A DNA stretch of 64,000 bases from an uncultured Lachnospiraceae bacterium (GTDB lineage: Bacteria > Bacillota > Clostridia > Lachnospirales > Lachnospiraceae). The translations under genes and the position numbers were made by a program. Below, piece after piece: positions 44,301 to 61,708 of this stretch. The stretch spans positions 1 through 64,000 of the forward strand of contig CATKXR010000015.1 in the NCBI GenBank assembly GCA_949840805.1, written 5' to 3'. Each line of letters starts with the position of its first letter. The first letter of the stretch is position 1. A model generated the notes under the pieces. That model searched no databases. It saw only the letters and a program-made list of their open reading frames with translations, and had not been told where the DNA came from.

Positions 44301-45344
44301 GTCACGGAAGATGAGACCGTGATTCATCCGGAAAAAATTTCTATGAATAAAGGAAAGCTGTCTTATAATTTGTCTTATGATTATAGCGGAAATATTTATT
44401 CTGAGATTAAAAAAAGAAATGGTTTCGGGGCGAAGGAGACTCTCAAAGCGGTTGTTATGCCGGTGCTTGCAGAGGAGAAACTATATTCTCCTTATGACAG
44501 GACCATATTGTGGAGTTCGTCAGATCCGGACGCAGTGATTGTGGAAAACGGAAAGATTACGGTACGTGACCAGGCAGGATGGATTAAAGAGACGTTAAAA
44601 ACGTATCCTTATGAGGCAAAGAAAACCGTCCTCATTACAGCTAAAACAAGGGATAACGGGCTGTCTGCCCAGTGTGAAGTAAACCTTACGTTTAAAGCGA
44701 ATGCCACATATATATCCTATAGCAGCAGAGGAAGTTCCGGCGGCGGAGGCGGAGGAAGCAGTTTGGGAAGTTCCTCCGGCAAGAGCAGTGTCGTAACGGC
44801 AGGCAGTGCAGGCGGAAGCGGGGCAGCCGGTCCCGGGGTGGCCCTTTTGGGAACCGTAACTTTAAATGGAGATGAAGTGCCAAAATCAGCAGAACCAGGA
44901 AGCGGACTGCCGGATTATGTGGTATCAGGAAGCTGGGTGAAGGAAGGTTTAAACGGTTGGAAGTTTTCAGATGGAAACCGAAATTATGTCAATGAATGGG
45001 CGGCGGTGGTGAATCCTTATGCGGATATCGGGGCAGGACAGAGTTCCTATGACTGGTTTCGGTTTGATATGGACGGATTTATGATGTCAGGATGGTATCA
45101 GGATAAGGATGGTAACTTATATTATTTGAATCCCCGGTCAGACGGAACAATGGGCAGGATGTTTACCGGATGGAACTGGATAAAAGGCGTCGATGGAAAT
45201 GAATACTGCTATTATTTTAATGAGAAATCGGATGGATTGAAAGGTGCGCTTGTGTGTTCTGCAGTGACCCCGGATGGGTACATGGTAGATGATTCAGGAA
45301 GGTGGATGAAAGACGGGAAACCTCAGATAAAAGTAAAACCATAA
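41316..45344 (+). CDS. Large secreted protein with GLUG-type repeats and C-terminal wall-binding repeats
   Basis: 1342-residue surface protein. Signal peptide (AGFLITAMFFHGAMSVLA) is followed by a linker with ELATPSKAEEN. A domain opening DGTKGAPFQIDSLSRLMGLS precedes GLUG-like repeats at about residues 300-410 (AGGIAGEV, VGGIAGNV, VGGIAGRT, AAGGMIGKY), seen in adhesins and IgA-peptidase-like proteins. Ig-like segments follow, including LWSSSDPDAVIVENGKITV. A Gly/Ser linker near 1140 leads to C-terminal wall repeats (~1224-1340: FMMSGWYQDKDGNLYYLNP, GRMFTGWNWI) like those at the other end of the preceding protein. AAGGAGGCG sits 8 nt before ATG 41316; the gap to the previous gene is 18 nt. 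Likely a wall-associated adhesin. Confidence 0.75.
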   Translation: MRQYKKKAAGFLITAMFFHGAMSVLADVPVQEYVPAIAEATVGEPVKNAGRYELATPSKAEENIEESGKRNEINFVKVATQANAREDDLWEWMFAMLEEEEPENYEDFLAWYEACEEEITETYHKVSGIEMMSSSVGDLWENWNANMDFPGDGTKGAPFQIDSLSRLMGLSEAVAAGVDYEGKYFELTRDIDLGNLTANSGNWNPIGWYQNQGELGGEVSHPFRGNFDGGGHTISGLKIVRPSLTLTNIGLFGVIDGGSVKNLSIEAEDIVGEDNTAVLAGAILGDAVIYGVTVSGYVNSNGNAGGIAGEVTGSEKRVTIENCSSESIVLNSEGRDKYVGGIAGNVQNAWLVDSQVTTQDGDSNRIRGKGYVGGIAGRTNHADLYNSYVSGTIGGNGSQAAGGMIGKYQSGNMVLARMAGKISSTNNGTASREGTFVGTRESKDRFTYGTEKNNHFSYLFTNDGAKAKVVSGSTIDGDNSFTKEAHIGYWTDNEKKYTIVAGRTEADSGERYFYEELEDAVRYIVTQKLDREFTAGEYADGISFRIDHFAPGYMGEPVRGYLVSVPRIDAKNDNGTFDTDVAKLTAISATSNSYHRTIHKDHAAAIVPGSVVTVTTAPKNTGENRYQMVMDTNEPGGVKAPVFLDESGRWVEMDYVNGGSYSFIMPECDTELNVEYIKVTTRLAVEPEETSIHVVQTRSGDRKNPKIVTEVTNQEGILIARYIDSNPDVSVQVQPLTVHGQHNGAGWTADRTVRWSVDDTNLLMNLSETGYTVKDAVILPNLDSAFIQGIINREVQAQADGQYQEKINNTIYTQNAVVTGSTNPETSVDNRAVYGNCRVKVTFRILDNTTVRVEGMALNRDEISFTVTRKLTGDRKNPKETISCSGPVILTATLNPVRPFFKNVSWKAKEEGKIVLLTPSGENTQDCQIAVNYDPSGAQNPAWIQNIILEDNEKRNKDPYGKLTGKGNYKEMVTAVSEDQTYGHVMVSCPVNIYFVTEDETVIHPEKISMNKGKLSYNLSYDYSGNIYSEIKKRNGFGAKETLKAVVMPVLAEEKLYSPYDRTILWSSSDPDAVIVENGKITVRDQAGWIKETLKTYPYEAKKTVLITAKTRDNGLSAQCEVNLTFKANATYISYSSRGSSGGGGGGSSLGSSSGKSSVVTAGSAGGSGAAGPGVALLGTVTLNGDEVPKSAEPGSGLPDYVVSGSWVKEGLNGWKFSDGNRNYVNEWAAVVNPYADIGAGQSSYDWFRFDMDGFMMSGWYQDKDGNLYYLNPRSDGTMGRMFTGWNWIKGVDGNEYCYYFNEKSDGLKGALVCSAVTPDGYMVDDSGRWMKDGKPQIKVKP

Positions 45345-45407: not shown

Positions 45408-48400
45408 ATGCAAAAGTGGATGAGAAAAATAAGGGGAAGGCGATGCTATGCCGGGATAATGGCGGGCCTGTTGTTCGGAATGATATTTTTGCCATACTTG
45501 AATTTGCCGGGCAAGGCTTATGGATCGGTTTCTTTTGGTGAAGGGGAACTCAGCTATAGTGAGGAGCTGGTAGCTTTGTGGGACGGGCTGGCTGCGGCGG
45601 AGAATATGGAGCGGACAGATTTTATTGGCCACATGACATGCACCTTTCCTATTGCAGGTGTTGTGATTTATAAGCAGCAGACAAGCGTAAGCCCTGGCGG
45701 AAAATGGAAGGATTATGAATATCGCAATATGTACTGTATTTCCCACAGCCGGGAACTGGCGGAAAATCCAAATACTACTATGGAAACCTCGGCCATCTGG
45801 TATATGAAAAAAGAACCTTATACTCTGAGAAATCTGCCGGATTCTATTACGAGCCGTATAACGGATCAATATCGCAGGCGTTTTAATTTTTTGCTTATGG
45901 CATATGGGGCTAATTATGAGGCGTATCAGGGAGGCGTTAATTCGGACCCGGTGATCGGAACGGCTAACTACTATTTGTGTCAAAGCTTTTGCACCCTGTC
46001 AGAAGAGGCGAAATTTACCGGAGACCGGGCTCATGACTGGGGGATGTACCGGCAGCATGCCACCCAGATTGCAAACCTTTACAACCCTTCAAAACTGGGG
46101 AGCAACCAGGTGTATCTGGACATGTTGGAGAATATGGAGACGACTTTCAATGCTGTCTGGAATACGGCAAAGGTGGCAGCGGATTGTGTGGAATCTTCGG
46201 ACACCGGCTATGTGTTTCATCCGTCTATTGCCCTGGAAGGAGATGGGATGTATCATGCCAGGTATGTGCTGACGCCAGAGACAAAAGAATTTTTCGGTTC
46301 TTCGTCCATCACGCTCCATGGAGACTGGAGCTTTGAAATCACAGAAAACGCGATTGATTTCAGATCGCCGACCGGCCGGCTTTCTGATGATGGTTATGTA
46401 GCGGAGATTGATCTGGCCAATGCCAATGGCATTATCCGGAAGATGATCGGAAATGAAAGCGTGAGGGAAGTTCATATGCCGGTAAAAATAGGAAACCGTT
46501 GGAGCCTTACCTTTGCTCAGGGCAACTTGATATCCAATTTAATAGAAGAAATGAAAATTGTAGTAGGAAGCCCGGAAGCAGGAACCCCGCCGATCTCTGC
46601 GGCGCCTCATCCTGCGTCATCTACAGTAGTCCGGTACAAGCATACGGAAAAATGGCAAGCGGATTATGTAGTGAATTTAAGGAAAATGGACGCAGAGACA
46701 AAAGAACCCTTAGAAGGAGCCTGGTTTGATATTCTGGAGGCTTTTGACGACAGCCAGCTTGAAGGGAGCATTCTGGAGGATGATAACTGGGACAATGACA
46801 ACGGAAGTCAGTTTATGCGATGGAAAGGCTGGGACAGCCCATATGGCGAGAACGGTGACGGAGATCCTTGTGAGAAGGACCAACAGGTTACGGACAGCGA
46901 AGGATGGCTTGTGGAGGCGGATTCCCTGGGAGCAGGGGAATTACAGCCATCCGGTGTCCATGCGCACCGGGATACGAAATATTACTCTTATACGAAAGGG
47001 TACTGTGGCGGTCATCTGGAGCCGGAGGAGGATGATGAAGAGGATGACGGAGGCGAAGCATCCGAGGAGTATGAGCGCCAGATCGAGATCTGTGAGAGCC
47101 TGGCGGCAGCAGGGGGATTTTATCACTCCCTGGACGGCGGGGCAAGAGAGCTTCTCGAAGCAGACCGGAACCGCCATTATGAGGAATTCGTATCCCTGTC
47201 CTATGAATATTCAGCCAGGGAGACAGCGGCAAGGAATGGATATATTCTTCACAACCAGGATCAGGTTCATGAGCCTTTTGAGAATGTTTTTGACGGGATT
47301 CATCAGGATACGGTTCCTGTTGAGACAGTGACGGTTCATTCCAGCCAGTATTATGCTTTACAAGGAGGAGAAAGCAGGGAAAAAAGGAAAGAAAAAAACA
47401 GAATAGAAGAAATAACTTTGACGGAGGATGATTTTATCCGAGAAGAGGATGATTTAGACCGGGAGACAGTTGATTTTGTCCATAGGGCAGATGATGTTAA
47501 TCAAGAAATTCCATATCTGACTGCCAAATCCCGGTATTTTATGGCAGTTGCCGGAAGTAATGATGCCATAAAGACGGAAGTAATGCCAGGAGAGGAGGCA
47601 GATCTGGACCATGTGTGGATTTTGGACGAGGATGGAACGTATGAGGAGGATTCGGAATATGGTATGGAGGATGAATGGGATACAAGTCCGTATGCGGCAA
47701 GCCCGTCTAACGCAGGTTCATTGAAAGCAAGCCCGGCCAATGCCAGTAGTCCGGATGTCGATCCATCTGATCTCAGGCTTCCTGTAAGAACTCTGTTTCT
47801 CCCAGGGGGAATCCGGTCATCCGGAACCGGAGGAAAGGGAATGAGGATACAGCAGAGGAGGAAGAAAACAGCCAGGGATAATTCTGTCCGCAGTTCGGCA
47901 GAGATGCAGGAATCCCAGATAACGCACATATCACCGGCAGATCCTGATTACTCTGAAAGCGGCGGCGCAGACTGGGTTTTTGAAATTTATGACAACCGGA
48001 CAGAAGCGGAAGTACACATTAACAAGCGTGATCTGCTTTTAAAGAGGGGAGAGAATGAAAATTATAATTCTTATGGGGATACTCAGGGGGACGGATGCTT
48101 AGAAGGCGCGGTTTATGGATTGTATGCGGCGGAAGACATCATTCATCCGGATGGGAAAACGGGGGTGGTTTTTGAAAAGGGGAATTTAGTGGCAATAACG
48201 TCTACAGATAAAAATGGGGATGCTTCTTTTATGGCAATCACTGAGGCGCCGGGGACGGTCTATGATTACAGCCAGGGCAGGACAGTCAGGACAGGGTTTG
48301 CAGGGCCGGGGAATGCATATACCGAAAATATCCATATGAACACCAGTAATCCCGATAGCAGTCAGGGGGAAAGGTGGTACTATCCTTTAACAGACAACCA

Positions 48401-51400
48401 GTCTGATAATGGAAATTGCTGGATTGGAAGGCCGCTGCTCTTAGGTTCCTATTATATTCAGGAACAAACCCGCTCTGAAGGGTATGAATTGTCTGTATAT
48501 GGGATAGATGCAGATATATCCAACCGTAATAGCTGGCTGGCCGGCGGAAGCCCGGAGGCAAAGGGAAACGTTCAGGTGAAGAAGGTAGAAGGAAATGTCC
48601 GGCTGATGGAGGATACGCAGAAGGAAGAAACGGTGACAGAGATACACCTTTCCGGCAGCGGCGCTGATTACGGATATGATATTTCCGTTAAAAACATATC
48701 GCCGGAGGCCCATCCTGGCTTTTGGCTGACCACTTTGGGGAAAAAGGAGGTATACCGGGAATGGAAAGAGCCGGAGATTTATTATGGAACAGAGGAAGCT
48801 GCCTATGGGACACCTGTTATGATTGACGGCAAAACCGTGGAAGCAGAAGAAGGGGAGGTAAAAACGCTTCCAAATGGAGAGAACATCGTAATCGGCCATA
48901 CGATGAAAATGGCAGTATCACCGGAAAATGTGGTTATAACAGGGCAAAAGGGCGCAATCCGAACCTTGGATATTCAGTATATACCAGAGCTTACGGGGAT
49001 TGCCGGAGGAAATGAAGCAGCTTTTATCAATAACTGCAATCAGGCATTTTCGTCTATCGGTTTACAGGTGCCTGATGGAGATGCTCCGTATTTTCTGGTG
49101 GAATTAGGAGACGATGCCTTATGGGCCAGGAATCTTTATGCGTTTTTGGCCAGAGAAGATTGTCCTGCTTTTAACGGGGCAAGGCTGGAGAAAGTCATAA
49201 GGAAAAACGAAAAGGCTTACGGAGTGCTCCGGTATTCTTTTCTTGAAGACGGGAAAGGGATGCCAGTGGTGTTCAGCACTCCGGACCAGACTTTTTATGT
49301 GCGGTATCCGGTGGTTTATTCGGACGGTTCGGATGGATATGCCTATCGCGGATATCCGCTGTCCGGGCTGGAGGAGGAGAATTATGAAAGAGGAGTTTAT
49401 CTGTACCGATGGATCCGGGTACCTAATGTGAAGCCGGAAAATCAGGTCGGTTTGTATGAGGATTTATCACGGATTTCTTATGTGAGCGCCCAGGAATTCC
49501 GGTCCTTATGGGTATATGGGGATGGGGAACTGCTTCGGGCACAAGACGGGAGTATCTATCAGAAAGAATACACCCGTTATGTGGACAGATCCGGGTATCA
49601 GATGATCGAAACGGCCGTCTATGAAGAAATAGAAGCAGCCTATGATCCGGTCAGCCGGACATGGAAGCTCCATGGCACGCCAGAACAGATTTCTCCGGAC
49701 GGAAGTATGATGATAACCGTCCGTTATGGAAACCGCTTTGGAGGAGAGACCAAAAGCATTACAGTGGCTGCCGCTCCTTCTATGAATCTTACGGGAACCT
49801 ATGTGCAGCCCGTGATTCTGGCGTACCCGGGCCAGGATTCTGTTTATGAGGATGCAGGAACAAGGCAGGTTCCTGTGGAAGTGTCAGAGCGCGCAGTCAT
49901 TCAAAAACTTCAGGTGAGGAAGGATATAGAAAAGACCTCCTACAATAATACGAATTCTTATGGGAAAATTCACGAGGACTGGTTTACAAGGATATTTGGC
50001 GGTTACTACCAGAACGGAGATGCAAAAGCCGCTGCCGGGAAAATGGATAATTTCCGGTTTAAGGCGTATCTTAAGTCTAACCTTGCCAGGCTTTACCGAT
50101 GGGAGGACGGTCAGGTGGTCTGGCAGGATCGGATGGGAAGAGAAATGGATGAGGCAGAGGTCCTTGGGGAAAATAACCGTTTCCCGGAGCTGGTTCGGAA
50201 AATCCACACCAAGGTACTGCATCAGACAGAGCCTCTTTTTCAGGATTCTGAAATGGCTGTAGTGGCAAACGAAAGGCTGTATGAATATACAAATGACAAG
50301 ATTAAGGAAGAACCAGAAAAAGGATATACTGCGATTTTAGAGACCACCTGGCGGACGGCAGAGGACAAAGAAGGCATAAGGGTGGTAAAAGCATACAATT
50401 ATGAGAAATTTTTTGATGCGATACAAGTGGCAAATCATGATAAATGGGACGATAGAGCGCCTTCTTATACAAGCTGGCATCCTATTGGCAACCAGGCGAA
50501 CCGGACGGAAGAAGCTATAGAGAATGCCCGGGTATCAGACCAGGTGCGTCAGTTTGCCATTGACTGGTATCTGCAGGATGAGGTGAAAAAACTGGCAGAG
50601 CCGGTACAAGACAGTCCCGGTGAAACTCAGGCGGCAAAAGGACAGGTATCCTACCCGGATGAAATTTATGACCGGGCGCTTCGGGCAGCGATTTTAAAAT
50701 CAGAAAATTATTTAAAACCGTTTTTTTTATACGATCTGGATGAAATCTATGCGGTCTTATGGGATGGGGAAGAAGGAGGCGGAAGTGATAGAGATGTCTC
50801 TACCCTTTCGGCGGATATGATTTATGAGGAGGATGGGGGCTATTATGGAATATCGGCATATCTGCCTTATGGCACTTATGTAGTGGTAGAGCAGCAGCCG
50901 AAGTATTCCGGATCCGAATACGGAAAGAACTTAATGGATTTTAAAAATAAACATTATGAGGTTGATAAGCCTAAGGAGATAAGCCTCCCTTCTCTCTATG
51001 CAGGATACGATGGTTTTCAGGCATCTCCGGAATTGATGAATAAATATTACTGCTATGACGGGACTATGGCACAGTCAGAGATGGAGCGAAAATATCATAT
51101 TCGTTTTCATGAAGAAGACCATGTAATCCAGGCCCATAACCATCATGGAGATTTTGAAATCTATAAATATGGCATGGATATCAGACTGATTGACAATGGG
51201 ATGCCAGAGGCTTTGGGAAGGGGGAATTATTTTTCTCTTACCCAGGATTCCCATAAGCCTTATAAAAATTATTATAATAAAAACGACGACCGGAAAATGG
51301 GAGAGGTGGATTTTTATCTGACAGAGAATCAGTCCGGGAGGAAAGGTATTGCGCCAAATTATCGATACAGTTCCGTGTCGGAGCACAAAGGGACTGCAGA

Positions 51401-54400
51401 TGATGTGCCTTATCCGGGAAAAGTTTCCACAGAGGACAATGTGCCAGGTGTGGAATATAAGGATCAGGTCTTAACCATACATGGAGTGCAGACTGCATAT
51501 GACGGGTTATATGCACCTATGCTGGTGCCCTGGAGCGTGATGGCTCCGGAACCGTCCGGGGGAGGACTGCAATCCGGAGGCCAGGATGAGAAGACTGGTG
51601 AAAGTGATTACCTTGGTTTTGCTTCTTTGAAATTCCGTAACCGTTTTTTTACGGCCAGGCTGCGTCTGGAGAAACTGGATAGTGAAACTCATGAAAATAT
51701 TCTTCATGACAGTGCCATCTTTGCCGTTTATGCGGCAAAAAGGGATGATTCCCGGGATGGGAACGGCCAGGTCATTTTTTATGATAAAGATACAACGATT
51801 GTGGGGACAAAAGAATTTTTGGAATCCATGGGGGCGGTCCAAATTTGTCCTGTAGCCAGAAGAATATCGCTTTTAGACCGGTTGTTGGGAAAGGAAACCG
51901 GTCCGGGAAATCTTTACACAGGCGTGGTTCCTGCAGGGACGCCTGTCTGTGATGAAGCCGAGAAAATCATAACAGGAAAAGGACAAGGTCAGCAGACGGT
52001 AGCATTTTCTTCTTATTCCACGGTACTGGACGGTAAAATGAAGGATGAAGAGGGCAAAGATGAGATGCGCTGGCAGCTTCAGACAGTAGGATATCTGGAA
52101 ACGCCTCAGCCACTAGGGGCAGGCGTCTATGTGATCTGCGAAGAAAAGGCTCCTTCTGGATATGTGAGGACAAAGCCTGTGGCTGTGGAAGTCTACTCGG
52201 ACAAGGTGGCTTATTATAAAGAAGGCCACAGAGACAGCCGGGTTCTGGCAGCTATCTATGAAGAGCTGTCGGAGGAAACCACAGGAAACCGCAACAAGCC
52301 TCAGGACAAAGGACACATGGCCCGGATTCATATAGAAAATACGCCCATTAAGCTGACCGTAGAAAAGTTAAAAGAATCCAGCAGCATTACGGCAAATACT
52401 ACGGCAGATAAGACAGTCACCTATAAGGTGAGCGGCAGGATCGATGGGAGCCTTGCAGATATCGGAAATAACCCTGACTATGTTTATGCTTATGAAAACG
52501 GGCATTATCTGGGGTATGGATGGAAGAAAGGGACGTTGGAGTATTTAGCCGCAAGGAAGGCGGCCGGAGAACAGGTAGAGCTTGTCTATGAGGGAGCGGT
52601 TTTTGCAGGCTATGGGTATGTGACCCGGGCGCTGGAGACAGCAGATGATAAAAATTCTTATGTGGCAGGGGCAAAAATGGCGCTGTTTGATGCTCTTGTC
52701 CTGAATCCTTCCGGAGATACCCAGGATTATGCTTATGAAGGTTTGGTGATAGAACGTAATTCTACCAATAATATTACCAGAATGTATGTGGAAAAGGGAT
52801 ATGCCGGGGAAAAGACCGATTTTGTGAAGAGGAAGGATGAAAACGGCCAGGAATATGAAGGAGAATTTCAGGCAGGGGCAGACCGTTATGGGAATCCGGT
52901 GATAAAGAAAGGGAATATTTGGGGTGCAGTGGTTTTAGAACGTCCGGATACTGATATTTTGTATTATGACTTAGACAGCCTGGAGGTTGCAGCATCAAAA
53001 ATTATAGATGGACGCAGGATCATTTTTGGTTATGACCGTGACCATAAAATGATCCCCATAAGCCAGATAGAGTCGGATAAGGCGAACTTCAGGCGGACGG
53101 ATACAGATCACTCCTTATTTGCTTTTAAAGGCGGCATGCCATACCTGGAACTGGTGGGAGGTGATTTTACAAAGATTCAATATTCCTCTATGGACAAGAC
53201 CCTGGCCGTAGGGGAAGGAACCCTGGTTTACCACCTGGACAGGGAGGGGAACCGGGACAGCCTGGTGGACCCGTACACGGGTATGGCATATGTACTTATG
53301 CCGGGGGAGTCTTCTGGTAAAGTGATGGTCTGGCCGGTGAATCTTCACCGGGATCAATATGGCAATGTGATTGCGCGGGATAAGATCACTACCTGCAGAG
53401 TGGCTACCATTGGGGAAAATCAGGATGGTTATGAAGAAAAAGCGGTTCTTGATGTGGTGAACCACTCAGGCCGGGAAATTCTAAGGAACCGGCTGCCTTC
53501 TTATGAGCACAGAGAATCCGGTTCTGTTTCAGGAACCTGGGAATCTCAGGAAAGCGGGGAAAGCCACAAGGAGACCACCGTCTATACCAATCCTTACGGA
53601 CAGAATCTTAACGGAGAAGTGTTGGAAGATGATAATAACGGGAGCTTTGCCGGGGAATTAAATCCTGTTTATGACAGTTACGGGCTTTCGGAATATTACC
53701 AGAGAAGCAATGAAACTTATGACAAGGGGACAGAGCTCTATGACCGGAACGGGGATTTTGTGCGGTATCAGGATTCCGATAATCTGGAAGAATATAATAA
53801 AAATGCCTATCACATCAATTCTCATGAACAGATATATGACGGAGATAAGGAAAAAGAGAAACAGGAACAAAAGAAGCTGTATCATCGGCAGGGAGAGGGA
53901 TATATTTTGGAAAATTTCTGGATTACTTCAGACAAAACGCCGAATGATCCTTTCCACAATGCTGAGACAGACGGGCAGGCTGACATTTTAAAACGAATTC
54001 CGGCGGGAAACTATATAATGGAAGAGCTTAAAAGTCCTCCGGGATATCTGAAGGGCATGCCTGAAGGGGTGGTGGTTGCGGAAAGTACGGATATGCAGCA
54101 TACCTCCATGGTAGATAAGACAACAAAGGTGGAAATATCTAAAATTGACGGAACGATAAACAGGAAAATCGGGGTTTGCCATTACCGGTCTGACGGAGCT
54201 GCGGAAAGCCTGGGGAGTATGACAGAGAGGAGCGGCGGTTATACATACAGAATGGTTCCGGGAGCCAGGCTTGCGCTGTTTGAGGCCAGAAAGGTCTATG
54301 ACGCACAGAAGCCAAAAGGATATTATCTGGAGAAGACAGGAAAAAATCCTCTGATATATGATTCCACGGACAGCCGGGCAGGTGATCAAAAGAAGCTGAC

Positions 54401-57400
54401 AGCATGCTGGGTCACGGACAGCACCCCGGTGTATGCAGAAGGGATTCCTGTTGGAACTTACATTTTAGAGGAAATCTATACGCCGCCTGGATTTGTAGCC
54501 GGCAGGCCTGTGGAAGTGGAGATCGTCAACACGCCCCAGGTACAGATATTCGTGATGAACAATGACCATACGAAGGTCGAGATAGAGAAATTTTCCATAA
54601 AAGAAGATAAAAAAAGCTGGATTTCCGGAGCGGGATTTACCTTGTATGAAGCGGTCACAGATAAAGACGGAAAAGCAGTATTCTGTGAGGGGGACCCGAT
54701 ATATGATCCTGGTAAGGCAATTGATTCCTGGATTAGCAGCGATTTAAAAGAATACACCAGCTTTATCCCGGCATTCGAAGTTATGTACCAGGAATATGGA
54801 GCAAAGGAGAAGACTACGGTGCAGTGGGGAGAAGATGGCCAGGAGTATAAGGCAGAGTGCATTTTTTCCTGCTCCCCGGATATTCAGGACAGTGGCCAGG
54901 GCCGGCTCCATCCTGTTACGGCGGAACTGATATTTGAGATGGAGGACGGAAGGCAAATCCGTATTACCGTATGGGGAGGTGATTATTTTGAATATCAGTT
55001 TGATTACCGGAAACTTCCAGAAGTAAATGAATATGCCTGCTCTTATGTAACCCTTGACGGAGTCAGAAGGATTGATTATCTTCCAGCAGGAAATTCTTAT
55101 GTGTTGGTGGAAACAAAAGTTCCCAAGGGATATGCAAAAGCAAAAGATCGGCTGATCTGTGTATCCGATACGGAGGCAGTCCAAAGGTACTCCGTTGAAA
55201 ATACGGAAGGAAAGCTGTATGTCTCCAAAAGGGCAAAAGGCCGGACGAAAGAACTGGCAGGGGCTCATCTGGAACTGTATCGGGCAGAAGATGACGGGAG
55301 ACTTGTGAAAGATAAAAATCATCTGGAAGCAGAATGGATTACCGGAAGCGATGGGGTTTATACGGATTCGGATTATGTAAATGACCGGATTCTGTCAGGA
55401 TATGAAACAGGGGATTTAAAACCTCACAAGATCGAAAGACTGGAAAATGGAATTTATTGGCTGACAGAACGGGAATGCCCTGATTATTATACTGCTTTTG
55501 AGCCAATCCGGATCGATTACCGTCAGGAGGATGAAATTCAGGTGATCCGGGCCGAGAACAGCCCGGTGGAAGGCTGTCTTGAGATTAAAAAGACAGGCGC
55601 AGACGGAACAGGACTTAAGGGAGCCGTGTTTGAACTGGCTGCATACGGACAACACGATCTGAGAAATCCGGTGTTTACAAAAAAGCTGAGTGATACGGAT
55701 GGAAGGATTCAAATTGGAAGATTACCGGTCGGTGAAGTGGAGAAGGATGGAAGGGTTGTGCCTTATCAATATAAGCTGAAGGAAATCGTCCCTCCGGAAG
55801 GGTATGCAGTCAATACACAGATTTTTACCTGGAGATTTGAGCCGGATAAAGAAGGGGAGCCTTATGCGTTTCATGAGGAGGCTGTCCGGTATTTTGAGAT
55901 TGTAGACGAGCGGACAAAAGTATTCATTGGAAAAAAGGATTTTGATGTGTTGGGAGCAGGTACGGAGGGGGATTTTCTTTCGGGGGTCGAATTTGCTGTT
56001 TATGAAATTACAGGAAGAGATTTGGAAGGAGGTCTTCTTTATGACAAGGAATCGCCTCTGGACAGATGGACGACCAGGAAGGAGGAAGTCCACGAAATAG
56101 AAGGCCTGATTGCAGGGAGAAGTTATCTTTTGAAAGAATTGTCCTCTCCGACAGGATACCATCTCATGGAGCCTGTACTGTTCGTCATGTCCATGGATGG
56201 AAGAAGGATTATCAAGATCAGTAATGAGGTGAATACTGTGACGGTCCATGGCATGGAGGGAGATGGAGAAGATCCGGATCCCATATACGGGATAACTATA
56301 AAAGGACGTTATCCCATCCGTGTGGAATATGAGATGGCAGATCGTTCCGGCATGGTGAAAGCACATTGGACAGGGACAAAAGACGGACATATTCTTGACC
56401 GGAAAGACGGATGGAAAGAAGGAGAAATTTATACAATAACAGAATACACCTGCTATCATGACGGTACCAGGCCTGTGACAGGGAAAAGGACAGAAAGCCT
56501 GTTTTTTGACGAGGACGGGTTCTGCTGTATTCCGGGACGGGAGGCAAGAAACACATCGCTTACCTTGAGCCATGAAGACGGGACGAAAATAGAATCTTTT
56601 CTTGTGAACGAGGTACTTTCCGAAAAGACTATTAAAAACAATGTACTTCCGGAGAATCCGCAGATTATGATAAGCAACCGTGACGGAAAACCAGGCCAGG
56701 TTTTGGATCCGGCTCAGGCAATTATCGGGACTATTGCTTTTATTAATGATTCAGCGGGCAAGACGGATATGGAGATTGCTGTCAGCCTTGACTCTTCCCT
56801 GGAAATATTGGATTCAGGAGGAGGTATGATCAGGGAAAATCAGATTATATATAAGGAAAAGGATGTCATGCCTATGGAGAGGCGGACGGTTTCCTATGTG
56901 GCAGCGGCAGAAAAAGAGGCATTATCTGTCCATCAGACAGCAGTGGCCCGTTATCAGGGGCATGTTGCCGCAACATCAAAAACCGTGCCTTTTATGCAAA
57001 AAGGGCGTCTTATAATCTATAATGAACTGACAGGAACCGGAAAAGGGATTTTTGGAGGTGAGGAGAGCGAATTTCAGGTCCGGCTTTATGCAGAAGACGG
57101 CGAAGAATTAAAAGGGCGTTATCAATATGGAGGAAGCAGAACAGGGATAATACAAAGTGGAGACCATATTGTTCTTGCAGGAAATGAATTTGCAGTGATT
57201 GACCCTGGATTTTATAAGAACGCACGATATCAGATTGCCCGAAAGGAGGATGGAAAAGAAGTGACAGGGCAAAACCTGTCAGGAACCATAGGAGAACAAG
57301 GAGCTTTTGCGTCATTTACCAGGCAGGTATGGGACAGCTCCGACCGGGAATTGTTCCGAAAGGGCGGGAGCTATCTGCTGACAGAGCAGACCGTTTATTC

Positions 57401-58949
57401 AGATAAAACCATATGGGAGAACGGACGGTTTGTGTTTACCCTGGATGGGCAGGCAGCCATAAGAGGAGTTGTGGCGGCAGATAAAAAGACAAAGATAGTC
57501 TTTTCAAAGTCAGATATCACAGGAACACAGGAGATTTCGGGATGCCATATGAGGATCAAGGACCGTGAGGGAAACGAGATTCTATCCTGGGTATCCACAG
57601 AGGAACCATACAAGATAGAAGGGATTCTGACGCCGGGGGAAGAATATTATTTGGAGGAAATACGTCCGGAGGATGGTTTTGCTTTTGCTGAGGAAATCCT
57701 GTTTTCCGTGTCTGAGAATGGTATTTTAGAGCAGGTTGCCATGAAGGATGAGGACACAAAACTTCGAATCCATAAGCTTGCGGATCCGGACGGAACGAAA
57801 TATGTACCAGACGCCATACTGCAGATTTTGAATCAGGACAAAACACCGGCAAGGGCGATATGCAGTTTGGGAGCTTTTAAAGAAGGGGAGCTTCTGATCT
57901 TTCGGTCAGGAGAAGAACCAACAGAGATTATCAGGCAGCTCTGTGCAGGACAAAGTTATTGGCTGCATGAGATAAAGCCTCCTTCAGGCTGCGCTTATGC
58001 GGAGGATGTGCCTTTTGTGATCAGCCCGGACGGAAGCTGGGATGAAGTGGTGATGACAGACAGGCAGACACATGTGTCGGTCAGCAAGACCGGTATCACT
58101 GGTGAAAAAGAAATTCCAGGCAATCATCTGCGGATAAAGACGACAGAAGGAGATGAGGTTATTTCCTGGGTGTCCGGGACAAAGCCTTATGAAATTCAGG
58201 GAATCCTGGATGCAGGGGAAACTTATATTTTAGAGGAGGTTCAGCCATGGGACGGTTATGCCTGGGCAGAGGAAATACGGTTTAAGGTCAGCTTAGACGG
58301 GACGGTGGATCGTGTTGTCATGAAAAATCAAAGGACGCAGGCGGAGATATTAAAGACGGATGCCAGGTCAAAGGAGCCTGTGGCAGGAGCAATCCTGCAG
58401 ATTCAGGATAAAGAAGGGAGGATTTTGGAACAGTGGACGTCAGGAGTAAAAAGCCACAGGATTACGGGAAAACTGGCAGCCGGTGAAGTTTATTATCTCT
58501 GTGAAAAGAAAGCGCCAAAAGGGTATCTGCAGTCGGAAAAGATGGAATTTACTATGCCAAAAAAGCCGGAGCTTTTGCAAATTTCTTATGAAAACAAAAA
58601 GAGGAAAGGAGGGAGGATACCGGAAGGGCCAGACACGCCAAAAGCGCCTGAATCGTCGCAAGTGCCTGAGGAGCCTAAAGAACCAGGCAGAATAACGGCA
58701 GTGTATGAAAGCGAGACGCCCAGATGGGTAAAGGAATTTTTTGATAATCCGATACCAAAGGCTTTCCGCCTGCCTGAAACAGGAGACAAAAGCCTGGCAA
58801 AATGGTATTTGATTGGCGTCGCGGCGTCTTTTTTGGGCATGTGCATAGCTTTTTTTGCAATTTCAATGACAAAATGCAGAAGATTCGATATAATAAACAG
58901 GATCAGAAAGAAAAAAGAAAAAAATGCAGAGAAAGACAAAGAAAGATGA
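45408..58949 (+). CDS. Giant LPxTG-anchored adhesin with ~13 Cna-B/SpaA-like domains
   Basis: 4513-residue cell-wall protein. Signal peptide (GIMAGLLFGMIFLPYLNLPG) to about residue 38. An N-terminal head (~41-400) looks like a thioester domain, with Cys110 in MYCISHS and Gln192 in LCQSFC as candidate bond partners. Prealbumin-like Cna-B/SpaA domains begin near 421, 869, 2085, 2315, 2907, 3057, 3270, 3391, 3505, 4030, 4119, 4223 and 4312. They carry the K-x-D...GAxFxLY opening (LRKMDAETKEPLEGAWF) and the E-x-x-AP-x-GY closing (EEKAPSGY, CEKKAPKGY); the Lys in such domains often forms isopeptide bonds. Acidic and Ser/Pro-rich spacers separate groups. The C-terminus has LPETG at 4455-4459 (58770-58784), a membrane helix and a basic tail, so a sortase attaches it to peptidoglycan. 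No sortase gene is in this window. Confidence 0.88.
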   Translation: MQKWMRKIRGRRCYAGIMAGLLFGMIFLPYLNLPGKAYGSVSFGEGELSYSEELVALWDGLAAAENMERTDFIGHMTCTFPIAGVVIYKQQTSVSPGGKWKDYEYRNMYCISHSRELAENPNTTMETSAIWYMKKEPYTLRNLPDSITSRITDQYRRRFNFLLMAYGANYEAYQGGVNSDPVIGTANYYLCQSFCTLSEEAKFTGDRAHDWGMYRQHATQIANLYNPSKLGSNQVYLDMLENMETTFNAVWNTAKVAADCVESSDTGYVFHPSIALEGDGMYHARYVLTPETKEFFGSSSITLHGDWSFEITENAIDFRSPTGRLSDDGYVAEIDLANANGIIRKMIGNESVREVHMPVKIGNRWSLTFAQGNLISNLIEEMKIVVGSPEAGTPPISAAPHPASSTVVRYKHTEKWQADYVVNLRKMDAETKEPLEGAWFDILEAFDDSQLEGSILEDDNWDNDNGSQFMRWKGWDSPYGENGDGDPCEKDQQVTDSEGWLVEADSLGAGELQPSGVHAHRDTKYYSYTKGYCGGHLEPEEDDEEDDGGEASEEYERQIEICESLAAAGGFYHSLDGGARELLEADRNRHYEEFVSLSYEYSARETAARNGYILHNQDQVHEPFENVFDGIHQDTVPVETVTVHSSQYYALQGGESREKRKEKNRIEEITLTEDDFIREEDDLDRETVDFVHRADDVNQEIPYLTAKSRYFMAVAGSNDAIKTEVMPGEEADLDHVWILDEDGTYEEDSEYGMEDEWDTSPYAASPSNAGSLKASPANASSPDVDPSDLRLPVRTLFLPGGIRSSGTGGKGMRIQQRRKKTARDNSVRSSAEMQESQITHISPADPDYSESGGADWVFEIYDNRTEAEVHINKRDLLLKRGENENYNSYGDTQGDGCLEGAVYGLYAAEDIIHPDGKTGVVFEKGNLVAITSTDKNGDASFMAITEAPGTVYDYSQGRTVRTGFAGPGNAYTENIHMNTSNPDSSQGERWYYPLTDNQSDNGNCWIGRPLLLGSYYIQEQTRSEGYELSVYGIDADISNRNSWLAGGSPEAKGNVQVKKVEGNVRLMEDTQKEETVTEIHLSGSGADYGYDISVKNISPEAHPGFWLTTLGKKEVYREWKEPEIYYGTEEAAYGTPVMIDGKTVEAEEGEVKTLPNGENIVIGHTMKMAVSPENVVITGQKGAIRTLDIQYIPELTGIAGGNEAAFINNCNQAFSSIGLQVPDGDAPYFLVELGDDALWARNLYAFLAREDCPAFNGARLEKVIRKNEKAYGVLRYSFLEDGKGMPVVFSTPDQTFYVRYPVVYSDGSDGYAYRGYPLSGLEEENYERGVYLYRWIRVPNVKPENQVGLYEDLSRISYVSAQEFRSLWVYGDGELLRAQDGSIYQKEYTRYVDRSGYQMIETAVYEEIEAAYDPVSRTWKLHGTPEQISPDGSMMITVRYGNRFGGETKSITVAAAPSMNLTGTYVQPVILAYPGQDSVYEDAGTRQVPVEVSERAVIQKLQVRKDIEKTSYNNTNSYGKIHEDWFTRIFGGYYQNGDAKAAAGKMDNFRFKAYLKSNLARLYRWEDGQVVWQDRMGREMDEAEVLGENNRFPELVRKIHTKVLHQTEPLFQDSEMAVVANERLYEYTNDKIKEEPEKGYTAILETTWRTAEDKEGIRVVKAYNYEKFFDAIQVANHDKWDDRAPSYTSWHPIGNQANRTEEAIENARVSDQVRQFAIDWYLQDEVKKLAEPVQDSPGETQAAKGQVSYPDEIYDRALRAAILKSENYLKPFFLYDLDEIYAVLWDGEEGGGSDRDVSTLSADMIYEEDGGYYGISAYLPYGTYVVVEQQPKYSGSEYGKNLMDFKNKHYEVDKPKEISLPSLYAGYDGFQASPELMNKYYCYDGTMAQSEMERKYHIRFHEEDHVIQAHNHHGDFEIYKYGMDIRLIDNGMPEALGRGNYFSLTQDSHKPYKNYYNKNDDRKMGEVDFYLTENQSGRKGIAPNYRYSSVSEHKGTADDVPYPGKVSTEDNVPGVEYKDQVLTIHGVQTAYDGLYAPMLVPWSVMAPEPSGGGLQSGGQDEKTGESDYLGFASLKFRNRFFTARLRLEKLDSETHENILHDSAIFAVYAAKRDDSRDGNGQVIFYDKDTTIVGTKEFLESMGAVQICPVARRISLLDRLLGKETGPGNLYTGVVPAGTPVCDEAEKIITGKGQGQQTVAFSSYSTVLDGKMKDEEGKDEMRWQLQTVGYLETPQPLGAGVYVICEEKAPSGYVRTKPVAVEVYSDKVAYYKEGHRDSRVLAAIYEELSEETTGNRNKPQDKGHMARIHIENTPIKLTVEKLKESSSITANTTADKTVTYKVSGRIDGSLADIGNNPDYVYAYENGHYLGYGWKKGTLEYLAARKAAGEQVELVYEGAVFAGYGYVTRALETADDKNSYVAGAKMALFDALVLNPSGDTQDYAYEGLVIERNSTNNITRMYVEKGYAGEKTDFVKRKDENGQEYEGEFQAGADRYGNPVIKKGNIWGAVVLERPDTDILYYDLDSLEVAASKIIDGRRIIFGYDRDHKMIPISQIESDKANFRRTDTDHSLFAFKGGMPYLELVGGDFTKIQYSSMDKTLAVGEGTLVYHLDREGNRDSLVDPYTGMAYVLMPGESSGKVMVWPVNLHRDQYGNVIARDKITTCRVATIGENQDGYEEKAVLDVVNHSGREILRNRLPSYEHRESGSVSGTWESQESGESHKETTVYTNPYGQNLNGEVLEDDNNGSFAGELNPVYDSYGLSEYYQRSNETYDKGTELYDRNGDFVRYQDSDNLEEYNKNAYHINSHEQIYDGDKEKEKQEQKKLYHRQGEGYILENFWITSDKTPNDPFHNAETDGQADILKRIPAGNYIMEELKSPPGYLKGMPEGVVVAESTDMQHTSMVDKTTKVEISKIDGTINRKIGVCHYRSDGAAESLGSMTERSGGYTYRMVPGARLALFEARKVYDAQKPKGYYLEKTGKNPLIYDSTDSRAGDQKKLTACWVTDSTPVYAEGIPVGTYILEEIYTPPGFVAGRPVEVEIVNTPQVQIFVMNNDHTKVEIEKFSIKEDKKSWISGAGFTLYEAVTDKDGKAVFCEGDPIYDPGKAIDSWISSDLKEYTSFIPAFEVMYQEYGAKEKTTVQWGEDGQEYKAECIFSCSPDIQDSGQGRLHPVTAELIFEMEDGRQIRITVWGGDYFEYQFDYRKLPEVNEYACSYVTLDGVRRIDYLPAGNSYVLVETKVPKGYAKAKDRLICVSDTEAVQRYSVENTEGKLYVSKRAKGRTKELAGAHLELYRAEDDGRLVKDKNHLEAEWITGSDGVYTDSDYVNDRILSGYETGDLKPHKIERLENGIYWLTERECPDYYTAFEPIRIDYRQEDEIQVIRAENSPVEGCLEIKKTGADGTGLKGAVFELAAYGQHDLRNPVFTKKLSDTDGRIQIGRLPVGEVEKDGRVVPYQYKLKEIVPPEGYAVNTQIFTWRFEPDKEGEPYAFHEEAVRYFEIVDERTKVFIGKKDFDVLGAGTEGDFLSGVEFAVYEITGRDLEGGLLYDKESPLDRWTTRKEEVHEIEGLIAGRSYLLKELSSPTGYHLMEPVLFVMSMDGRRIIKISNEVNTVTVHGMEGDGEDPDPIYGITIKGRYPIRVEYEMADRSGMVKAHWTGTKDGHILDRKDGWKEGEIYTITEYTCYHDGTRPVTGKRTESLFFDEDGFCCIPGREARNTSLTLSHEDGTKIESFLVNEVLSEKTIKNNVLPENPQIMISNRDGKPGQVLDPAQAIIGTIAFINDSAGKTDMEIAVSLDSSLEILDSGGGMIRENQIIYKEKDVMPMERRTVSYVAAAEKEALSVHQTAVARYQGHVAATSKTVPFMQKGRLIIYNELTGTGKGIFGGEESEFQVRLYAEDGEELKGRYQYGGSRTGIIQSGDHIVLAGNEFAVIDPGFYKNARYQIARKEDGKEVTGQNLSGTIGEQGAFASFTRQVWDSSDRELFRKGGSYLLTEQTVYSDKTIWENGRFVFTLDGQAAIRGVVAADKKTKIVFSKSDITGTQEISGCHMRIKDREGNEILSWVSTEEPYKIEGILTPGEEYYLEEIRPEDGFAFAEEILFSVSENGILEQVAMKDEDTKLRIHKLADPDGTKYVPDAILQILNQDKTPARAICSLGAFKEGELLIFRSGEEPTEIIRQLCAGQSYWLHEIKPPSGCAYAEDVPFVISPDGSWDEVVMTDRQTHVSVSKTGITGEKEIPGNHLRIKTTEGDEVISWVSGTKPYEIQGILDAGETYILEEVQPWDGYAWAEEIRFKVSLDGTVDRVVMKNQRTQAEILKTDARSKEPVAGAILQIQDKEGRILEQWTSGVKSHRITGKLAAGEVYYLCEKKAPKGYLQSEKMEFTMPKKPELLQISYENKKRKGGRIPEGPDTPKAPESSQVPEEPKEPGRITAVYESETPRWVKEFFDNPIPKAFRLPETGDKSLAKWYLIGVAASFLGMCIAFFAISMTKCRRFDIINRIRKKKEKNAEKDKER

Positions 58950-61708
58950 AAAAGGTGGTAATTGGCATATTAGCCCATGTGGATGCAGGAAAGACCACAT
59001 TGTCGGAACGTATTTTATATTTGACCGGAAAAATTCGGAAAATGGGGCGGGTGGATACAGGGGATACTTATCTGGATACCGATGAACAGGAAAGGGCCAG
59101 GGGAATTACGATTTTTTCCAAGCAGGCAGTATTTCCTTTAGGAGATTTTTCCGTTTCGTTATTGGATACACCAGGCCATGTGGATTTTTCGGCAGAGATG
59201 GAGCGGACACTGCAGGTCCTGGATTATGCAGTATTGGTAATCAGCGGGGCAGATGGAGTCCAGGGGCATACGGATACTCTGTGGCGGTTGCTGAAACGTT
59301 ATAAAATACCGTGTTTTTTGTTTATTAATAAAATGGACCAGGAGGGTACGGAAAAAGAGACGCTGCTGGCGGAGCTGCAGCAGCGTCTGGACGGAGGCTG
59401 CCTGGATTTTACGGCAAAGCAGGAGGAGCTGTGGGAGAATCTTGCTATGTGTGAGGAGCGGCTTTTGGAAATGTATTTGGAACAGGGGAATATAGAAAGG
59501 ACGGAGATTCTCAGGCTGATCCGGGACAGAAAGATATTCCCCTGCTATTTTGGCTCGGCTCTTAAGGGGGACGGAGTGGAGAAATTTCTGGCCGGATTGG
59601 AAAGTCTGCTTGAAGAGCCAAAGGCCAAAACGGAACTGGGGGCAAAGGTTTATAAAATTTCCAGGGACAATCAGGGAAACAGGCTGACCCACATGAAAAT
59701 TACCGGAGGCTGCCTGAAGGTGAAGGGGCTTTTGCCCGGCAGAGAGGATGAAAAGATCAATCAGATCCGGATTTACTCTGGAGAAAAGTTTGAGGCGGTG
59801 AAAGAAGCAGAACCAGGGACGATCTGCGCGGTTACGGGGCCTGTGGCTACTTATCCGGGGCAGGGAATCGGCGTGGAGAAGGAGTCGGAGCTTCCAATAC
59901 TGGAGCCGGTGCTGAATTATCAGGTAATATTGCCGGAGGGAAGCGATATTGCGGGGATGATAAGCAGGCTTAAGCAGCTAGAGGAGGAAGAACCTCAGCT
60001 TCATATTGCCTGGAACGAGCCGCTTAAGGAAATACATGTCCAGGTTATGGGTGAAATCCAGATTGAAATCTTAAAGAACCAGATCCGGGAACGTTTTGGC
60101 AGAGAAGTAGAATTCGGGGTCGGGAATATTGTATATAAGGAGACGGTTTTGCGGGCCGTGGAAGGGGTGGGACATTTTGAGCCGCTGCGCCATTACGCGG
60201 AAGTACATCTTCTTCTGGAACCGGCAGAGCCGGGAAGCGGGCTGCAGGTGGCAAGTTGCTGCAGTGAGGATACGCTGGACAAAAACTGGCAGCGCTTGAT
60301 TCTCACCCATCTGGAGGAAAAAATCCACAAAGGAGTGCTGGTCGGGGCGGATATTACGGATATGAAGATCACACTTCTTTCCGGGCGGGCCCATGTAAAA
60401 CACACAGAAGGCGGAGATTTCAGGCAGGCGACTTACCGGGCCGTACGTCAGGGGCTAAGGGAAGCAGGATGCAGGCTCTTGGAACCCTGGTTTGCGTTTC
60501 GCCTTGAAGTTCCGGCAGAATCGGTAGGCCGCGCCATGTCAGATTTAGAGCAGATGCAGGGAAGTTTTGAACCGCCTCAGATAGACGGGGAGAAGGCAGT
60601 GCTCAAAGGCAGCGTGCCTGCAGTCAATATGCAGGGATACCAGCAGGAAGTGACACGGTACACAAGAGGAAGAGGAAAGCTTCACTGCACTTTAAAAGGT
60701 TATGAACCATGCCATAACGAGGAAGAGGTGGTGGAGAATGCCGGTTATGATCCTGAGGCAGATCTGGATAATCCCACCGGTTCCGTATTCTGCGCCCATG
60801 GAGCAGGATTTGTGGTGCCGTGGAACCAGGTAAAAGATTATATGCATTTGGCTCCTTCTTTTCAGGCGGACAAGACAGGGGAAGAAGGGAGTGAAGAAAA
60901 GGAAGGGGGAATGGCCGGAAAGGGGACAGGGGGGAAAAGCGGTTTAAAACCAGGAGCCGGTGCGGAGACGTACAAGGATGGAAGGGGAGGCCTGCCTTTT
61001 GGGGCAGAGGAGAAGGAACTGGAGGAAATTTTTATCCGGACCTATGGGGAGACTAAGAAAAAGCAAAGAGGCACAGAAGGGCCGCGCCGAGTGATTTATG
61101 AGGGACACCAGGAATCGGGACAAAAGGCTGCAAAGCCAGAAGACAGAGGATCCCCTATGGTTTCGGCGCCGGATTACAGGCAGGAAGGCAAAAAGGCGGT
61201 AAACAGAGACGAGTATTTGCTGGTGGACGGCTACAACATCATTTTCGGATGGGAAGAACTGAGGGAACTTGCAAAGGAGACGATTGACGGGGCAAGATAC
61301 CAGCTTATGGATACTTTGTGCAATTATCAGGCATTCCGCCAATGTGTCCTGATCGTGGTGTTTGATGCATATAAGGTGGCCGGGAATACGGGAAGCGCCA
61401 TGAATTATCACAATATTCATGTGGTGTACACAAAGGAGGCAGAGACGGCAGACCAGTACATCGAAAAGTTTGCTTATCGGATGGGAAGGAATTCTCGTGT
61501 GACAGTGGCCACCTCTGACGGCCTGGAGCAGGTGATCATCCGGGGAGCAGGATGTCTTTTGATGTCTGCGGAAGAACTGTGGGAGGATGTGAAAAGGACA
61601 GGGCAGCTGATCCGGGAAGAACAGCAGAAATTGTCTCAAAAGAAAAAGTTCCGCCTGTTTGATGGGGCGGATGAAAAACTGAAAAAGCAGTTGGAAGATC
61701 TCCGGTAA
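58946..61708 (+). CDS. TetM/EF-G-like ribosomal GTPase fused to a C-terminal NYN (YacP/Rae1-like) nuclease domain
   Basis: 920-residue fusion. Residues 1-~640 match the size and order of TetM-type ribosomal-protection GTPases: P-loop AHVDAGKT (10-17), switch RGITI (52-56), DTPGH (74-78), NKMD (128-131), then EF-G-like domains to the end of domain V. A charged, Gly/Glu-rich linker (~640-750) follows. Residues ~755-900 form a NYN/PIN-like domain of the YacP type: LLVDGYNIIFGW with Asp761, VVFDAYKV with Asp807 and ATSDGLEQ with Asp858. In Bacillus, YacP (Rae1) cuts mRNA in the ribosomal A site. ATG 58946 overlaps the adhesin stop (ATGA), so translation is probably coupled; the ribosome site is weak. 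Tetracycline resistance should not be assumed. Confidence 0.88.
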   Translation: MKKVVIGILAHVDAGKTTLSERILYLTGKIRKMGRVDTGDTYLDTDEQERARGITIFSKQAVFPLGDFSVSLLDTPGHVDFSAEMERTLQVLDYAVLVISGADGVQGHTDTLWRLLKRYKIPCFLFINKMDQEGTEKETLLAELQQRLDGGCLDFTAKQEELWENLAMCEERLLEMYLEQGNIERTEILRLIRDRKIFPCYFGSALKGDGVEKFLAGLESLLEEPKAKTELGAKVYKISRDNQGNRLTHMKITGGCLKVKGLLPGREDEKINQIRIYSGEKFEAVKEAEPGTICAVTGPVATYPGQGIGVEKESELPILEPVLNYQVILPEGSDIAGMISRLKQLEEEEPQLHIAWNEPLKEIHVQVMGEIQIEILKNQIRERFGREVEFGVGNIVYKETVLRAVEGVGHFEPLRHYAEVHLLLEPAEPGSGLQVASCCSEDTLDKNWQRLILTHLEEKIHKGVLVGADITDMKITLLSGRAHVKHTEGGDFRQATYRAVRQGLREAGCRLLEPWFAFRLEVPAESVGRAMSDLEQMQGSFEPPQIDGEKAVLKGSVPAVNMQGYQQEVTRYTRGRGKLHCTLKGYEPCHNEEEVVENAGYDPEADLDNPTGSVFCAHGAGFVVPWNQVKDYMHLAPSFQADKTGEEGSEEKEGGMAGKGTGGKSGLKPGAGAETYKDGRGGLPFGAEEKELEEIFIRTYGETKKKQRGTEGPRRVIYEGHQESGQKAAKPEDRGSPMVSAPDYRQEGKKAVNRDEYLLVDGYNIIFGWEELRELAKETIDGARYQLMDTLCNYQAFRQCVLIVVFDAYKVAGNTGSAMNYHNIHVVYTKEAETADQYIEKFAYRMGRNSRVTVATSDGLEQVIIRGAGCLLMSAEELWEDVKRTGQLIREEQQKLSQKKKFRLFDGADEKLKKQLEDLR

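Follow-up and report, generated by a model that had tools for sequence, protein, structure and literature searches.

A Rae1/YacP-type nuclease fused to an EF-G-like GTPase in an uncultured Lachnospiraceae bacterium: a candidate endonuclease of paused ribosomes

The window analysed here, 64,000 nucleotides from an uncultured Lachnospiraceae bacterium (assembly GCA_949840805.1, contig CATKXR010000015.1, positions 1 to 64,000, forward strand), carries at 58946..61708 (+) a gene for a 920-residue protein in which an EF-G-like GTPase is joined through a linker to a YacP/Rae1-type NYN nuclease. On the sequence evidence this fusion is best explained, with a confidence slightly above even, as the Rae1/YacP endonuclease of the genome, carried to ribosomes by the EF-G-like GTPase to which it is joined. 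The fusion is real, widespread and, judged by its conservation, functional. The architecture has been known since 2015 and no novelty is claimed for its distribution; the present analysis adds that the GTPase fails the criteria of Tet proteins, occurs unfused and may well have been fused once, and that in this genome the fusion, as far as the assembly shows, takes the place of free Rae1.

Gene and domain structure

The gene was divided into the following parts.

58946..61708, + strand: fusion gene, stop included, encoding GTPase, linker and YacP/Rae1-type NYN nuclease, 920 residues (open reading frame (ORF), Pfam)
58946..60865, + strand: GTPase part, residues 1-640, comprising the G domain, domains II-V and a C-terminal extension (Pfam, alignment, AlphaFold2)
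60383..60424, + strand: domain IV tip, residues 480-493 (GRAHVKHTEGGDFR), Lys485 lying opposite TetM Pro509 (alignments)
60701..60865, + strand: GTPase C-terminal extension, residues 586-640, of the SVFC..G...V.W..V..YMH type (alignments)
60866..61201, + strand: linker, residues 641-752, charged and for the most part disordered (AlphaFold2)
61010..61045, + strand: linker helix, residues 689-700, in which an ELxxIFxRT-like motif is conserved (alignments, AlphaFold2)
61202..61705, + strand: NYN (YacP/Rae1) nuclease domain, residues 753-920 (Pfam, alignment with Rae1)

The reading frame runs from an ATG at 58946 to a stop at 61706-61708 with zero internal stops, and the single unbroken frame proposed in the initial annotation was thereby borne out. 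An assembly error or frameshift was excluded because the GTPase and NYN domains recur in one frame in other genomes, at 80/80 loci from named genomes and at 21 further loci, some genomes possibly belonging to both sets. Pfam placed GTP_EFTU at residues 4-222 (176.7 bits), EFG_III at 320-391, EFG_IV at 394-507 and EFG_C at 510-592, with EF-G_D2 at 234-299 slightly below its cut-off (25 versus 27), and NYN_YacP (PF05991) at 758-920 scored 174.7 bits against a curated cut-off of 24.6, making the nuclease part a member of that family. AHVDAGKT (10-17), RGIT (52-55), DTPGH (74-78), NKMD (128-131) and GSA (203-205), which we take to be the G motifs of the GTPase, were all present, in agreement with the complete EF-G/Tet-type GTPase of about 640 residues with intact G motifs that had been described in the initial annotation. 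In the AlphaFold2 model the GTPase and NYN parts were ordered, and values of the predicted local distance difference test (pLDDT) fell below 50 at residues 644-688, 701-751 and 900-907, so that the linker, already noted as charged, is predicted to be largely disordered with one helix. The predicted GTPase fold matched ribosome-bound EF-G and TetM and showed the five domains of an EF-G-like protein, the structural alignment with TetM reaching model residue 631.

Within the linker helix, E691 and I695 were present in at least 90% of 59 aligned rows, and the linker motif pattern matched 68/93 fused proteins that carry the anchor, 9/102 without it being left out. The linker-type motif was not found in the first set of unfused GTPases, for which a stricter pattern was used that was never applied to the fused proteins, and its absence there is only suggestive. 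A separate translation start for the nuclease was ruled out as a family feature, a start codon with a ribosome site 5' of the NYN domain occurring in 10/81 genes versus 123/810 control windows; the present gene has one such start (ATG, codon 738).

The nuclease domain

The NYN part aligned with B. subtilis YacP/Rae1 as crystallised (PDB 5MQ8, 5MQ9) at an E-value of 5.9e-24, and residues D761, N764, D807, D836, E840 and D858 fell opposite Rae1 D7, N10, D53, D81, E85 and D104, so that the acidic residues of the active site, as judged by sequence alignment, are in register. Asp761, Asp807 and Asp858 had been correctly picked out in the initial annotation, and D836 and E840 also belong to the invariant acidic set. 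All six residues were invariant in 102/102 fused proteins, this one included, and in 28/28 stand-alone proteins. The 102 fused sequences (22 + 80) do not all come from the family and class samples described below. Nothing in these alignments suggests that the nuclease is dead.

The GTPase and its subfamily

The GTPase part was 29.0% identical to TetM, 30.7% to TetO, 33.2% to the Tet-like GTPase L115 and 27.8% to the EF-G encoded in the same genome. Its best NCBIfam profile was tet_protect (NF012153), at 427.9 bits and thus below the cut-off of 775, which a genuine TetM used as control passed with 872.6 bits, and on the EF-G profile TIGR00484 it scored 296.7 bits against a cut-off of 659.4. The YSPVST loop of Tet proteins with Pro509, a residue located in the tetracycline site according to the portions consulted of a review and a paper, was replaced by KHTEGG, with Lys485 in the place of the proline. 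Residues 485-491 (KHTEGGD) were invariant in 59/59 fused rows of the larger alignment, G489 varying slightly in an alignment of 20 rows. Among unfused GTPases the motif was KHTEGGD in one set and KHT-E/S/C/N-GGD in a later set, nine Clostridiaceae-type copies having S, C or N instead of E, and the lysine was always kept. Wherever their ends were present, the unfused GTPases carried the S-V/I-.C..G C-terminal extension, and they terminate near the start of the linker of the fused form. Since the loop and the C-terminal extension are common to unfused GTPases that end near this point, the GTPase is, by these sequence features, a separate subfamily occurring both fused and unfused. With its low identity to TetM, its score below the Tet cut-off and its lysine opposite Pro509, it does not strictly qualify as a Tet resistance protein. 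The earlier label 'TetM-type' fits the predicted fold and is not supported in the sense of resistance, the protein being as distant from TetM as from EF-G. The genome encodes one protein of this subfamily.

A further group of Tet-like GTPases was seen at L115, L116 and L117 (genomes G566, G500 and G521), with HTHPLDF at the domain IV tip as opposed to HTEGGDF or YSPVST. L115, at 33% identity to the GTPase of the fusion, was the one member tested on tet_protect and scored 525 bits, below the cut-off.

Distribution of the fusion

A search for the architecture across Clostridia, as had been proposed, found it to be common in both the family and the class samples, long frames being counted as fusions by length alone. 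PF05991 matched 264/299 Lachnospiraceae genomes, and the best 150 of these matches comprised 132 frames of at least 800 residues, 14 of fewer than 300 and 4 between, so that the fusion is the usual form of YacP among the best-scoring matches of the family. The class Clostridia sample gave a match in 189/291 genomes, with 88 long, 56 short and 6 intermediate frames among the best 150. In a scan of named genomes the best 80 of 595 loci all carried both domains (80/80), and hosts of the fusion included Hungatella hathewayi, Intestinimonas butyriciproducens, Clostridium punense, Desulfosporosinus acididurans and Anaerovorax odorimutans. Across a phylum-wide sample the GTPase was found at an E-value of 1e-100 or better in 22/299 genomes, in 18 of them in frames of at least 857 residues and in 4 in frames of 651-661 residues, two of the latter being 35-36% identical; the Monoglobus copy is annotated by NCBI as 'translation factor GTPase family protein'. 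No common gene neighbourhood of the fusion was found in a rough look at the first 25 unannotated BLAST clusters from 130 fused, stand-alone and unfused loci, where the largest cluster was the gene with its shadow frames and the next covered at most 39 loci, several again being shadow frames.

Among viral contigs, 29 loci matched the GTPase, most at about 30% identity, and two contigs of the viral collection (L198, L199) start with a GTPase relative that is 49% identical over query residues 1-635.

Origin of the fusion

The first GTPase tree placed 41 fused rows in a single clade amid unfused relatives (Shimodaira-Hasegawa-like approximate likelihood ratio test (SH-aLRT) 99), the nearest branch being the unfused G202; it included 12/27 genomes with a separate-frame GTPase, to which an enlarged tree added 15 rows from 14 genomes. 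In the enlarged tree the fused rows and the contig-edge genes of G256 and G426 formed one clade (SH-aLRT 98), again with G202 nearest, and a single clade of the fused rows alone was not rejected (approximately unbiased (AU) test, p 0.868). The enlarged free quick tree required three changes for the fused state, solely because the G256 and G426 rows sit among the fused ones, and the G426 gene, which runs into the end of its contig and groups within the clade of the fused, is probably a cut fusion. In the NYN tree, whose bootstrap had not settled, the fused rows required two changes and a single clade was likewise not rejected (AU p 0.544). The first GTPase tree and the NYN tree leave out loci L064-L099; rows below 200 bits were dropped, G530, with its GTPase in two frames (L100/L107), is in none of the trees, and L155 and L246 are identical. 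Both GTPase trees were quick trees with long-branch warnings, which leaves the place of the Tet group unsure. A single origin is not rejected by these trees, and the two parts may well have been fused once. G431 and G495, from other families, each have two YacP matches, and their fused copies lie deep within the fused group, which suggests transfer.

Replacement of free Rae1

The fusion was the only YacP domain found in this genome. In another member of the family (G161, L058) the order is mrnC-rlmB-yacP-sigma, and the same RNA-methylase-type neighbour was seen by BLAST clustering at 8/11 stand-alone yacP loci, with a Pfam check in L058 alone; the consulted text on B. subtilis describes rae1 as co-transcribed with yacO, the rlmB homologue. 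Here ispF-cysS-mrnC-rlmB was present and yacP was absent behind rlmB, the next ORF being transglutaminase-like. As far as the assembly shows, the fusion thus appears to stand in for free Rae1, though the assembly, with a completeness of 90% and a contamination of 6%, may lack a further copy.

Within Lachnospiraceae, the GTPase was found in 0/35 genomes without a YacP match versus 10/14 with a short-frame YacP, the 14 being G536 and 13 of the 14 listed short-frame genomes (all but G095, whose frame lies at a contig end). Among Clostridia outside the family the counts were 8/102 without YacP versus 9/54 with a short-frame YacP (of 56 listed, G536 being counted in the family and G517 left out). 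Combined, this gave 8/137 versus 19/68 (Fisher p 3e-5), or 7/136 versus 18/67 (p 4e-5) without the contig-edge G256 and G426. Because the short-frame genomes were not sampled at random and relatedness makes the genomes non-independent, this co-occurrence is a pointer only. The proposition that the GTPase is always accompanied by YacP was rejected on the 8/102 Clostridia outside the family in which the GTPase occurs and no YacP was detected, although G426 among these eight is probably a fusion cut by the contig end and G530 has its GTPase in two frames. By these gene counts neither the GTPase nor Rae1 depends on the other for its presence in a genome.

G416 carries two unfused copies of the subfamily (L263, L264) together with a stand-alone YacP.

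Proposed mechanism and alternative explanations

Published accounts, as consulted in part, describe Rae1 as an endoribonuclease that acts in the A site on mRNA being translated, and Tet proteins and EF-G as sharing a common binding site in the A site. Because both halves thus have relatives that act in the A site, the fusion most likely acts on paused ribosomes. Like EF-G and TetM, the GTPase in its GTP state would bind a paused ribosome whose A site is free. The NYN domain would follow the GTPase C-terminal helix, tethered by a flexible linker some 110 residues long. The NYN domain would cut exposed A-site mRNA after domain IV withdraws, or act on a neighbouring stalled ribosome; such sequential use or use of neighbouring ribosomes would be needed because domain IV and NYN cannot share one A site. 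GTP hydrolysis would release the fusion protein, the linker allowing domain IV and NYN to swap after hydrolysis. General decay would then deal with the cleaved mRNA, and trans-translation with the ribosome. A wider proposal is offered tentatively, at somewhat less than even confidence: a translation factor with a built-in mRNA nuclease, serving as a GTPase-timed quality-control enzyme that would sense paused ribosomes and cut their mRNA, would have taken the place of free Rae1 in a large part of Lachnospiraceae and Oscillospiraceae, its unfused ancestor having been an undescribed ribosome factor partnering Rae1.

Several points weigh against recruitment of Rae1 by the GTPase. Both halves would need the A site, and B. 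subtilis Rae1 is a free protein (PDB chain, 181 residues). The association of GTPase and YacP is driven by the family and is weak outside it (Fisher p 0.11), and the GTPase presumably has some role without Rae1, since it was found without a detected YacP. The geometry of the NYN active site is taken from sequence alignment, and ribosome binding and mRNA cleavage by the fusion are predictions.

An alternative that we consider improbable is a role of the NYN domain in rRNA or tRNA maturation, with the GTPase positioning it on pre-ribosomes or ribosomes. An early prediction for NYN domains, cited in the consulted part of Atkinson 2015 (PMC4342817), and the RNase-III-like and SpoU-type rRNA methylase genes adjoining stand-alone yacP (L058) are in its favour, whereas the characterised relative Rae1, in the published text consulted, cuts translated mRNA, and YacP is dispensable in the 35/299 family genomes where the domain was not found. 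Equally doubtful is the view that the halves act separately and that fusion merely co-expresses them: the linker is long and disordered and relatives have each half unfused, but the fusion is retained across many families with a single origin not rejected, a conserved helix lies within the linker, and internal starts before NYN are not enriched.

That the protein protects ribosomes from tetracycline and is a resistance protein to which an RNase was added is given a still lower probability, and tetracycline resistance as its main role is unlikely. The best NCBIfam profile, the structural alignment with TetM and the placement of these proteins in the Tet subfamily in the consulted part of Atkinson 2015 (PMC4342817) would fit such a role; set against them are a tet_protect score far below the cut-off that TetM passes, a lysine in 59/59 fused rows where TetM has Pro509, and an occurrence across the family that looks more like that of a housekeeping gene than of an acquired resistance gene. 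Least probable is a defence protein cutting mRNA when phage or a drug stalls ribosomes, for which only the general idea that such cleavage might serve defence can be adduced; PADLOC models gave no match at E 1e-5, and most genomes of the family have a YacP domain, usually in the fused form among the best-scoring matches, unlike defence genes with their patchy occurrence.

If recruitment of Rae1 by the GTPase is correct, the fusion would reveal how Rae1 is directed to the ribosomes on which it acts, and a common family of gut bacteria would have dedicated GTPase-driven mRNA cleavage in ribosome quality control. It would also caution against annotating genes of this kind as tetracycline-resistance determinants and draw attention to a GTPase subfamily, as yet unstudied, that is common to fused and unfused forms.

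Neighbouring genes

The fusion ATG overlaps the stop of an upstream ORF at 45408-58949 (+) of 4513 residues, with six SpaA (prealbumin-like) stretches and a C-terminus that we take to be LPETG-like, which is apparently a giant wall-anchored surface protein. For the ORF adjoining it at 41316-45344 (+), of 1342 residues, Pfam gave no match with an E-value of 0.001 or below.

Comparison with known systems

Consulted passages of Atkinson 2015 (PMC4342817) report the acquisition of a YacP-like NYN domain by the Tet proteins of ten Clostridiales species and suggest a novel resistance mechanism involving RNase activity. The present protein has the same architecture, a Tet-family GTPase with a C-terminal YacP-like NYN domain, and matches these Tet-NYN fusions in having tet_protect as best profile, albeit below its cut-off, and NYN_YacP at the C-terminus; it departs from that account, as far as consulted, in that its GTPase fails the Tet criteria and has unfused relatives. 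The statement in the initial annotation that no characterised protein of this kind was known stands in so far as no functional characterisation was recognised in the open-licence literature searched, and is incomplete as regards the architecture, which is in print in the same source. B. subtilis Rae1/YacP (5MQ8, 5MQ9) has a homologous NYN domain with the acidic set in register, but is free, with no GTPase part in its chain, and its gene, in the literature as consulted, adjoins yacO/rlmB. TetM and TetO share the fold and domain order of the fusion GTPase, which differs from them in its 29-31% identity, the missing YSPVST/Pro509, a shorter G' region and the added NYN domain. EF-G, here represented by the genome's own copy at 27.8% identity, has the same fold, whereas the fusion has a different domain IV tip and, in addition, the C-terminal extension and the NYN domain.

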